Assembly (NCBI GenBank): GCA_015522695.1
Contig: WALT01000025.1
Coordinates: 1-64,000, forward strand
Direction: 5' to 3'
DNA from: Nitrososphaerota archaeon
GTDB lineage: Archaea; Thermoproteota; Nitrososphaeria; Conexivisphaerales; Conexivisphaeraceae
Length of the DNA: 64,000 nt
Shown: positions 20,515-24,029 of the stretch, piece after piece
How positions within the stretch are numbered: the first letter of the stretch is position 1
How the letters are laid out: each line of letters opens with the position of its first letter
Notes under the pieces: model-generated
What the model was told of the DNA's origin: nothing
Databases searched by the model: none
What the model saw: only the letters and a program-made list of their open reading frames with translations
Made by a program: the position numbers and the translations under genes

Positions 20515-21048
20515 TCAGGGGATGTAAGCGCGGCTGGACAGGAACGGTATCAGAGCCATCTTCAACGCCTCCACCGTAAGCTCCCTTCTTGTGACCAGCC
20601 CCCTTGAGAATAACCCCACGGCTCCCTCCCTTTCGCCGAGCCCCTTTACACCATAGGCCTCATCCATCGCCATCTCCATCTCCACATGTTCCCCAAATAT
20701 TATGTCGACAACCGCGTTCGGTAGCTGGTATGCTGGCCCGAAACCATGCGACATCATGCCACTACCGGGTTCCAACACAGATGCACACGTGAAGACAAAC
20801 CAATCGTCACCCACTTGTTCAAGCCCCGACTCTATACCGATGCAGAAATCCGCGTTCTCGACTTGCTCACATGCAGATCTAGCCCTTAACTTGCTATCCT
20901 CCACTATCTCCTCGAAACCCACCGGCTGTACAGCTAGGTCCCTTGGTGGAGGGACGCGTACGACCTCTACACCATCGTAGATATCCGAAAAAACTGCCAT
21001 GGTAGCTTCGACCTTCACGGGATTCAGGGAGGCGATTGCTATGAGCAT
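20515..21048 (-). CDS. Inosine/xanthosine triphosphatase (YjjX/DUF84 family)
   Basis: A house-cleaning NTP phosphatase of about 177 residues that removes ITP or XTP. The opening IAIASLNPVKVEAT is the family N-terminus. The motif IGIESGLEQVGDDWFVFTCA, the helix EEIVEDSKLRARSAC and the end GAVGLFSRGLVTRRELT are all typical. I prefer the ATG at 21048 (MLIAIASLNP) to 21063. The gene is divergent from the threonine-synthase-like gene and convergent with elp3. Confidence 0.88.
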   Translation of the reverse strand: MLIAIASLNPVKVEATMAVFSDIYDGVEVVRVPPPRDLAVQPVGFEEIVEDSKLRARSACEQVENADFCIGIESGLEQVGDDWFVFTCASVLEPGSGMMSHGFGPAYQLPNAVVDIIFGEHVEMEMAMDEAYGVKGLGEREGAVGLFSRGLVTRRELTVEALKMALIPFLSSRAYIP

Positions 21049-21211
21049 CTCCAGTCCTAGCATCAGGAAGGATAAAACAAAAATCTGCCTTCATATCCTA
21101 GTATACATAAGCGTGGACGAGCGATCGGATGAAGTCGATCAAGGGACCCTGGTACTAAGACGCCAGATAAATAGGGTCACCAAGCATCTCGGGTTACCGC
21201 GCTTCCTTTGC

Positions 21212-22564
21212 ATGTTCTGTGGCAGGATCGTTGAAGGTCAACTGACGACTCTTCTATGCCCCAAGTGTAAGGCTCCATTCGTCTTCAGCATGGAGGAGAA
21301 GATACGGAATTTCGACAGGGACAAGCTTCATCGCAGGGGAGTTTGGAGATATATACAATTGCTGGCGCTACCGGACGAGCTTGCCGAGAATCCTGTGAGC
21401 CTGGGGGAGGGTGATACCCCTTTGTTGAAGGCTCACAGGCTGGGTAGCGAGCTAAACCTGAGCGATGTTTTCATTAAAAACGAGACCATGAATCCGACCG
21501 GATCCTACATCGATAGAAGCTCGACGTTGCTCATGACAGCCGTCGTTAGGTCCGGATATAGCGATGTGATAGCTATCGGTGGAGGAAACCTCGTCGCCAG
21601 CCTCTCCGCATATGCGGCGAGGGCGGGGCTTCCCCTGACAGCGTTGACGCCGAGCAGAGACCCGGAAAAGATAGCGCAGGCGACGATCTATGGCGCAAGG
21701 GCCTCCGTCGAGGCTAGCTGGTACACCGCCAACTGGAAGGCAGTGATGGGTGTGAAAAACGAGGACGACTTTCTGGTGATACCGGTGGATCCGATGATGA
21801 CCGAAGGTAAGAAGACGACGGTGCTCGAAGTAGTTGAACAGCTCGGGTGGGAGCCACCGGACTTCATGGCGTTACCTGCCGCCGATGGTGCACACGCGTT
21901 GATGACGATAAAGGGGCTCATGGATCTGAACATGGCAGGTTTGATAAAATCCAAGAGGAGTACCAAGCTTATCGTCGCGTATGCGGGGGAAATGGCCAGG
22001 GAGGAGATACACGAACTCGGAACGGCCTTCACAGAATACTTCGATGGAATCAGAAGCAATATCGAGAGCATAGATGCTGCGACGTTCGTCGAGGTTTCCA
22101 TCAACGAGGCCACCAGGGCAGCCCTTGATGTAGCCAAGACGGAGGGCGTGCTCGTGGAACCCGCCGCAGCGATACCGGTTGCGGCTGTGGAGAGGATGCG
22201 AGAGATGGGAGAAATCGACAGGGGGGATCGCATCGTCATCGTCGTTACCGGATCGGGCTTGAAGCGTGTGCTCAATATGGCTGGGAAGATCCCATATCCC
22301 ACCACCGTGGAGGAGAAGGAGATCGGTTCCACGAAGCGTGCGATACTCGAGGAACTGTCTAAGGGAACGGTACATGGATATGGATTGTGGAGACTTTTGA
22401 GGGAAAGGGGGATCAGGGTGACGCTTGCAGCCGTCTATGAACACTTGGCCGACTTGGAGAAGGAGGGCCTCACGATAAGGGTTAATGAGACGTTCACGGG
22501 CGGAAGAAGACGCGTCTACTATGCCCTATCCGATAGGGGTTATTCTAGGCTTCATTCACGGTGA
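21212..22564 (+). CDS. Threonine-synthase-fold protein lacking the PLP lysine, fused to a winged helix
   Basis: A 450-residue protein from ATG 21212, which fits the TATA box GATAAATA about 40 bases before it; the frame is open further upstream but overlaps the divergent gene. A Cys4 cluster (CGR...CPKC) is at the N-terminus, then a threonine-synthase-like fold-type II PLP domain. In that family the lysine sits in GS(F/Y)KxRG; here it reads NPTGSYIDRS with Ile100 in its place. The GGGN loop and the changed phosphate loop (PAADGAHAL) also differ from active enzymes. Residues 371-450 form a PadR-like winged helix (GTVHGYGLWRLLRERGIRVT, AAVYEHLADLEKEGL). It is probably a metabolite-sensing regulator, not an enzyme; this is inferred from motifs. 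Confidence 0.8.
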   Translation: MFCGRIVEGQLTTLLCPKCKAPFVFSMEEKIRNFDRDKLHRRGVWRYIQLLALPDELAENPVSLGEGDTPLLKAHRLGSELNLSDVFIKNETMNPTGSYIDRSSTLLMTAVVRSGYSDVIAIGGGNLVASLSAYAARAGLPLTALTPSRDPEKIAQATIYGARASVEASWYTANWKAVMGVKNEDDFLVIPVDPMMTEGKKTTVLEVVEQLGWEPPDFMALPAADGAHALMTIKGLMDLNMAGLIKSKRSTKLIVAYAGEMAREEIHELGTAFTEYFDGIRSNIESIDAATFVEVSINEATRAALDVAKTEGVLVEPAAAIPVAAVERMREMGEIDRGDRIVIVVTGSGLKRVLNMAGKIPYPTTVEEKEIGSTKRAILEELSKGTVHGYGLWRLLRERGIRVTLAAVYEHLADLEKEGLTIRVNETFTGGRRRVYYALSDRGYSRLHSR

Positions 22565-22838: not shown

Positions 22839-24029
22839 ATGAGGATTGGGCTCTATGTTACCGAGGCTGGGCTCGTGCTGGCCGATGACGAAGGGAACAT
22901 CATACAGGCGATCAAATATGAGGATGATGCGTATCAGAAGTTCAGACTGGTCTCCACGGGTAATAGAATAGGCGAACTAGATGATATCCTGAGGAAGGCG
23001 GCAGAACTCAAGATCGACGAGATAACGACCCACGTCCCGGGAATAGACACGATCGCGGAGTCCATGGGCATAAGGGCTGATGTTATCGAGGGCCCGAGCA
23101 CGGATGAGAGGATGGAATTGATGGTGAAGACTGGGTTCGTCATGGATGAAAGGGGGGCTGTGGAGCTCATCAGGGAATTCGCGATCAAGACGAGTGAAGA
23201 GAAGATCAGGGAGGCTGCAGCGAGGCTAGACCTGCATATAATACAGATTATCTCGGCGATAGATGAGTTGGACAGAGTTGTGAACCTGCTGGCTGCCAGA
23301 GTTAGGGAATGGTACGGGTTGCATTTTCCGGAACTCGATGGCATAGTTCAAGATCCGCGTATATACGTCAGGGTGGTGTCCGTGCTCGGCAGAAGGGAGA
23401 ACTTGACGACCGATAACCTCATGAAGCTTTCTGTACCTCAGGAAAGGGCGGAGGCCATAGATGAAGCTAGAAAGAACTCGAAGGGTGCTGATATCAGGGA
23501 GGAGGAGCTCTCCTTATTGCAGGCATCAGCAACCCAGGCCTACAATAGCTATCAGCTAAGGCTCAGGCTGACTTCACAATTGGAAGAGCTCATGAACAGG
23601 GTTGCGCCGAACATAACGAACCTGGTCGGTGCCACGATCGGCGCCAGGCTCATCGCTAAAGCTGGAGGGTTGGATGGATTGACAAGGCTACCCGCCAGCA
23701 CTATACAGGTGCTGGGAGCTGAGAAGGCGTTGTTCAGGGCGTTGAGGAAAGGGGGTAAACCGCCCAAGCATGGGATAATATTCCAGCATCCGATTATCCA
23801 TGGATCTCCGCGATGGCAGAGGGGAAAGATAGCTAGGACGCTGGCTGCCAAGCTGGCGATAGCTAGTAGGCTTGACTATTATTCTGGCGTCCTGGATCCA
23901 TCTTTTGCTGAGAAGATGGAGAAACGCATCAAGGAGATCAAGGAGAAGTACGCCGAACCGCCAATAAAGCCTAAGAAGAAACCGAAGGCCAGGAGGAAGG
24001 GTAGGAGACATGGTAAAGGTAAAACATGA
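22839..24029 (+). CDS. nop5: Nop5 (Nop56/58), C/D-box sRNP core protein
   Basis: A 396-residue scaffold protein of the C/D box RNP that guides rRNA and tRNA 2'-O-methylation. The Nop N-terminal domain binds fibrillarin. The Nop domain is marked by MNRVAPNITNLVGATIGARL and GGLDGLTRLPASTIQVLGAEKALFRAL, followed by KHGIIFQHPIIHGSP. The tail is very basic (KPKKKPKARRKGRRHGKGK), as usual. The fibrillarin gene overlaps its end by 20 bases. Confidence 0.95.
   Translation: MRIGLYVTEAGLVLADDEGNIIQAIKYEDDAYQKFRLVSTGNRIGELDDILRKAAELKIDEITTHVPGIDTIAESMGIRADVIEGPSTDERMELMVKTGFVMDERGAVELIREFAIKTSEEKIREAAARLDLHIIQIISAIDELDRVVNLLAARVREWYGLHFPELDGIVQDPRIYVRVVSVLGRRENLTTDNLMKLSVPQERAEAIDEARKNSKGADIREEELSLLQASATQAYNSYQLRLRLTSQLEELMNRVAPNITNLVGATIGARLIAKAGGLDGLTRLPASTIQVLGAEKALFRALRKGGKPPKHGIIFQHPIIHGSPRWQRGKIARTLAAKLAIASRLDYYSGVLDPSFAEKMEKRIKEIKEKYAEPPIKPKKKPKARRKGRRHGKGKT

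Follow-up and report, generated by a model that had tools for sequence, protein, structure and literature searches.

A lysine-less threonine-synthase fold fused to a winged helix: a candidate vitamin B6-responsive regulator family of Archaea

The window analysed here is a stretch of 64,000 nucleotides from a Nitrososphaerota archaeon (assembly GCA_015522695.1, contig WALT01000025.1, positions 1 to 64,000 of the forward strand). Its gene at 21113..22564 codes for a threonine-synthase fold that lacks the lysine for pyridoxal phosphate (PLP) and carries a PadR-like winged helix at the C-terminus. The family to which this fusion belongs is probably an archaeal vitamin B6-responsive transcription factor, a fold-type-II counterpart of the bacterial PdxR. 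Lysine loss, fusion and gene neighbourhood are beyond chance, since more than 100 homologs conserve them. A preliminary description, made from the sequence of the window, had seen in the gene a retired enzyme domain reused as a sensor on a transcription factor. The present results support this view for the family and, by inference from the family, for the window copy; vitamin B6 as the probable ligand and target goes beyond it. No description of this architecture was found in the open-access literature.

The open reading frame on the plus strand is intact and ends at 22564. It starts either at GTG 21113, which gives a protein of 483 amino acids, or at the alternative ATG 21212, the start used in the preliminary description. 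The features of the gene, with residues counted from GTG 21113, are as follows.

21113..22564, plus strand: lysine-less threonine-synthase/winged-helix fusion (open reading frame, translation, Pfam/NCBIfam, homolog alignment)
21209..21268, plus strand: N-terminal zinc ribbon, C33/C36/C49/C52 (cysteines conserved in fusion homologs and stand-alone threonine synthases)
21320..22282, plus strand: threonine-synthase (fold-type II) domain (PF00291; AlphaFold2 model; Foldseek top matches 2zsj, 6cgq and 2d1f)
21509..21511, plus strand: ATC, isoleucine at the position of the PLP Schiff-base lysine (motif NPTGSYIDR)
22322..22561, plus strand: C-terminal PadR-like winged helix (PF03551; PDB chains 6abq_B/6abt_B; predicted local distance difference test (pLDDT) of the AlphaFold2 model about 82-98 over most of it)

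The PALP family PF00291 matched residues 95-380 with 151 bits (cut-off 35). The AlphaFold model, built with 50 homologs, has a pLDDT of 85.1, its top PDB matches are threonine synthases, and the Foldseek comparison with 2zsj yielded an E value of 1.5e-20, which places the protein in the PALP fold-type II superfamily. The threonine-synthase motif NPTGS(F/Y)KDR is changed to NPTGSYIDR, with Ile133 (Ile100 when counted from ATG 21212) in place of the lysine, just as the preliminary description had read it. The winged helix proposed there was recovered as well, with 37.6 bits for PF03551 (cut-off 27) over residues 411-481. Both the phosphate loop and the asparagine loop had been described as altered; this is true of the phosphate loop, which reads AADGAH compared to VGNAGN, but the asparagine loop is changed only in part and retains its asparagine (GGGN), as the protein also retains TGSGLK of the TGxGLK motif. 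The four N-terminal cysteines had been taken for a possible additional metal input, which was an over-reading, as the alignment shows this CxxC...CxxC ribbon in stand-alone archaeal threonine synthases too. Among the in-frame ATG, GTG and TTG codons near the ribbon, only GTG 21113 keeps all four cysteines, as would a start further upstream; from ATG 21212 the ribbon is incomplete, because the codon of the first cysteine is 21209-21211.

The fusion set comprised 119 proteins after deduplication, drawn from a phylum sample and from named genomes, and was compared with 30 stand-alone threonine synthases; some genomes may be present in both collections, although identical proteins were removed. 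The lysine is absent in 112 of the 119 fusions and present in 30 of the 30 stand-alone enzymes. The residues found at this site in the fusions are R (50), L (21), I (17), V (7), K (7), T (6), M (5), F (3), A (2) and S (1). Among the 60 nearest genomes, all full-length fusions fetched had a residue other than lysine (I, F, L or V), while all stand-alone threonine synthases fetched had lysine. A simple mutation in the window gene is ruled out by the loss of the lysine in most homologs of the same architecture. Fusions occur in Thermoproteota, Asgard archaea and others, with Thorarchaeota, Lokiarchaeota, Hermodarchaeum, Njordarchaeota, Bathyarchaeota, Methanosuratincola, Geothermarchaeum rappei and Nitrososphaerales metagenome-assembled genomes (MAGs) among the named holders.

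In a tree of the threonine-synthase domain alone, from which the lysine column was removed, the fusions form one clade with a Shimodaira-Hasegawa-like approximate likelihood ratio test (SH-aLRT) support of 94. The clade has two sides, an Arg-type and a hydrophobic side. The window protein falls on the hydrophobic side beside proteins of Thaumarchaeota/Nitrososphaerales MAGs (loci L215, L223, L206, L228 and L233; support 81), its exact position being unsure given the quick search and the long branches. The seven fusions with lysine form a Bathyarchaeota subclade nested inside the Arg-type clade, so that the lysine may have been regained. Lysine-bearing fusions of Bathyarchaeota (L123, L128, L225, L231, L236, L241, L244, L246 and L248, some of which are one genome in two collections) read NPTNSFKDR.

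The 442-position NCBIfam model NF004170 (PRK05638), named 'threonine synthase', spans the window protein from the ribbon through the winged helix; with 185.6 bits the protein does not reach the curated cut-off of 421. All 12 proteins in the sample above this cut-off (e.g. L039-L050) have arginine at the lysine site. The architecture described by NF004170 is that of this fusion family, and the enzyme name is probably a misannotation, because the family itself is without the catalytic lysine.

The neighbours of the fusion genes point to vitamin B6. Within three genes of the fusion, pdxST (PLP synthase) was found in 9 loci and the S component (ecfS, PF07155) of an energy-coupling factor (ECF) vitamin transporter in 65, sometimes with EcfA and EcfT alongside, which amounts to 74 of the 119 fusions. 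The same neighbours were found at 0 of 19 stand-alone threonine synthases from loci that have no fusion (Fisher p 8.5e-8, shared ancestry not corrected). The 9 pdxST-adjacent fusions belong to at least five families; the loci L182, L189 and L190 were fetched because of pdxS and so add to the pdxS count, while the remaining loci were found via the fusion. Among the loci of the hydrophobic side, fusion and pdxS-pdxT are arranged divergently in L074, L075, L078, L182, L189, L198 and L200, and in L190 the fusion lies directly upstream of pdxS. The best PDB match of the ECF S component is 4hzu_S (E 3.8e-9), which is HmpT, and Glu41 of HmpT is aligned with a conserved glutamate of the archaeal S components. 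HmpT was reported to carry pyridoxamine (PMC4860826). The gene pdxS was present in 10 of 57 fusion-bearing genomes compared to 189 of 398 genomes of the phylum sample (relatedness and incompleteness uncorrected), as expected if many of the fusion-bearing genomes depend on uptake, a salvage lifestyle.

A palindromic motif upstream of the co-conserved genes, which the preliminary description had suggested as a check, is present. The inverted repeat ATATATAAGtttaAgCCTATATATaGg lies upstream of the hydrophobic-type (non-Arg) fusion genes, often inside a divergent pdxS or ecfS promoter, and has a self-reverse-complement correlation of 0.92. In a leave-one-out comparison, 15 loci of the first set outscored nearly all of 1254 control upstream regions. 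A matrix trained on 14 sites of this first set was then applied to later-fetched loci with 578 controls: 21 of 26 hydrophobic-type fusions outscored all but at most one control, which leaves the operator in 19 of 24 loci after removal of two second records of training genomes. With three mismatches the pattern was unspecific, as controls gave similar results, so that only sites with 0-1 mismatch were used; among the matches listed, these are mostly at the fusion gene. Exceptions include a second perfect copy in one genome, upstream of an HMG-CoA-synthase-like gene (L318:4650-4675, G041:C12), a site in an AT-rich stretch (G041:C51) and one inside a reading frame (G030:C41). At the divergent loci, where the predicted operator occupies the intergenic region common to both genes, a single dimer bound to it could cover both promoters. 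At L109:6515-8127, genes for a membrane protein and an EamA-like permease (named by eye) share the operator divergently with the fusion gene; both are candidates for alternative B6 transporters.

Taken together, we propose that a threonine synthase, by acquiring a PadR-like winged helix at its C-terminus and losing the Schiff-base lysine, gave rise to an ancient archaeal family of transcription factors of which the window protein would be a divergent member. With the lysine lost, the usual PLP catalysis is no longer possible. The protein would instead sense B6 status through PLP or a PLP-amino-acid adduct in the former active site, the binding of which we propose to be reversible because no lysine traps it. 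The ligand would shift the seating of the winged-helix dimer on the palindromic operator, which would overlap the promoters of the fusion gene and of either pdxST (synthesis) or the ECF S component (uptake). The analysis establishes the fold, the fusion, the loss of the lysine, the single clade, the neighbourhood and the operator; we infer the ligand, the binding to DNA, the repression and the direction of the response. The odds are even that the fusions constitute a class of B6 sensors in Archaea, Asgard archaea among them, which gave up the lysine so that PLP binds reversibly, passes B6 status on to the winged helix, controls pdxST and an ECF-type B6 importer of Archaea, and is convergent with PdxR.

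The window copy lies isolated among housekeeping genes. Its surroundings contain the following features.

20515..21063, minus strand: divergent neighbour gene (open reading frame)
21096..21112, plus strand: TCCTAGTATACATAAGC, directly upstream of GTG 21113; similar to one half of the family operator, fails the matrix test and is suggestive only
22839..24029, plus strand: Nop5-type gene (PF01798), downstream, housekeeping context (open reading frame, Pfam)

The adjacency to nop5 agrees with the preliminary description. The divergent neighbour is, by eye, probably DUF84/ITPase-like, with no known link to B6. No second sequence resembling TCCTAGTATACATAAGC within three mismatches was found in the window's genome, nor was the family operator. 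This genome has a second lysine-less fusion, which takes the third place, after pdxS and pdxT, in an operon on contig C33 (L130:7942-10735; G000:C33). It shows the motif NPTRSYADR and 24% identity to the window protein, and is barely recognisable by Pfam (70 bits for PALP, no PadR match), but its predicted structure is again a threonine synthase with a winged helix. The same genome contains an ecfS-ecfA-ecfT-like cluster on C15 and a lysine-bearing thrC on C2, away from the window fusion.

Several observations weigh against a B6 regulator. Neither pdxS nor ecfS is a neighbour in 45 of the 119 fusions, among them the window copy, and the upstream region of the latter scored -4.5 with the operator matrix (empirical p 0.64), i.e. 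no match. With the same matrix, no operator was detected for the Arg-type fusions or for the lysine-bearing threonine synthases, and its absence from the Arg-type fusions is a point against the proposal, as is the lysine in seven members. For the transporter, the position of HmpT His84 is occupied by lysine in 26 of 27 archaeal S components (e.g. L089:9020-9778), and PF07155 spans several vitamins and does not fix the vitamin. In Bathyarchaeota, an AIRS/HypE-like gene is conserved directly after ecfS (e.g. L097:10321-11334), which also counts against B6.

Other functions of the family have to be weighed against these data. A regulator of the threonine pathway, whose dead domain would respond to threonine or O-phosphohomoserine and govern the thr genes, would fit a sensor derived from threonine synthase, and the fusion indeed adjoins a lysine-bearing thrC, mostly divergently, in a single group of Bathyarchaeota (f21 and named relatives). 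However, this layout is limited to that group, where ecfS mostly still flanks the other side, whereas the conserved neighbours elsewhere are pdxST or ecfS, and thrC of the window's genome is apart from the fusion. Lysine-keeping fusions in thr operons, the case that the preliminary description had named as speaking against it, were not found; beside thrC, the fusion has arginine and the stand-alone ThrC has lysine. We regard control of the threonine pathway as unlikely. Regulation for another vitamin, such as the thiamine precursor hydroxymethylpyrimidine (HMP), for which the ECF S component would be the transporter, draws on the original assignment of HmpT to HMP and on the AIRS/ThiL/HypE-like gene after ecfS. 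That gene is, however, a better match to HypE than to ThiL, and both the repeated adjacency to pdxST and a sensor with a PLP-binding fold argue against this alternative, which appears very improbable. That the fusion is still an enzyme, either an unusual lysine-independent lyase or a moonlighting one whose tail binds DNA, could be argued from the seven members with lysine, from the NCBIfam label and from the retained asparagine and TGxGLK motif. It is hard to reconcile with the arginine in every protein above the NF004170 cut-off, with a lysine site that varies freely (R, L, I, V, T, M, F, A, S) and with the separate threonine synthase match in many fusion genomes, including that of the window; we give it very little credence.

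The window copy needs separate consideration. It might be a drifted paralog that lost B6 regulation, with the pdxST-operon copy taking over, which would be compatible with the explanation given for the family. Its long branch (1.96), the degenerate phosphate loop, the absence of both B6 neighbours and operator match, and the second fusion in the pdxST operon are in line with such drift. On the other hand, the long reading frame is intact, ribbon and winged helix are retained, the fold is confident, and the pdxST-operon copy diverged even further (branch length 2.54). On balance, drift is doubtful, though a serious contender. Judged from its family, the window copy stands about an equal chance of being a B6 regulator itself, and it could work in trans or control other genes.

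If B6 regulation holds, the family provides candidates for an archaeal B6 regulator, its operator and an archaeal B6 importer; for most species, the B6 transporters were described as unidentified (PMC9997740). Public annotation would need correction, as the 'threonine synthase' label of NF004170 on lysine-less proteins would lead to errors when pathways are reconstructed in Bathyarchaeia and other Thermoproteota. The family would also be a clear example of a retired enzyme turned sensor, with a loss of the catalytic residue that can be traced on the tree.

Among known systems, NF004170 has the same overall architecture as the window protein, which scores under its cut-off. Stand-alone archaeal ThrC shares the zinc ribbon and the threonine-synthase fold at about 30-39% identity, but keeps GS(F/Y)K and is without a winged helix, the fusion being the opposite on both counts. 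With PadR-family regulators, the fusion shares the winged-helix domain above the Pfam cut-off; their sensor is the usual PadR C-terminal domain, whereas here a dead enzyme is located on the N-terminal side. The proposed function parallels that of the MocR/PdxR regulators, with which the family has in common a winged helix attached to a PLP-enzyme fold, the adjacency to pdxST, a shared intergenic operator and, as predicted targets, B6 synthesis and uptake. PdxR acts on a similar layout, around the intergenic region of pdxST and pdxR. MocR factors, to which the PLP-sensing regulators of bacteria belong, were reported absent from Archaea in one survey (PMC5320631). The link to B6 genes through a shared operator, a trait of MocR/PdxR, was found in the family but not at the window copy. 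The sensor of MocR/PdxR is a fold-type I aminotransferase, while that of the fusion is fold-type II without the lysine (PF00291, Foldseek); their winged helix is N-terminal and of the GntR type, while that of the fusion is C-terminal and PadR-like, with a zinc ribbon added at the N-terminus. Our best reading is that the fusion family would work like PdxR without being a member of the PdxR family.
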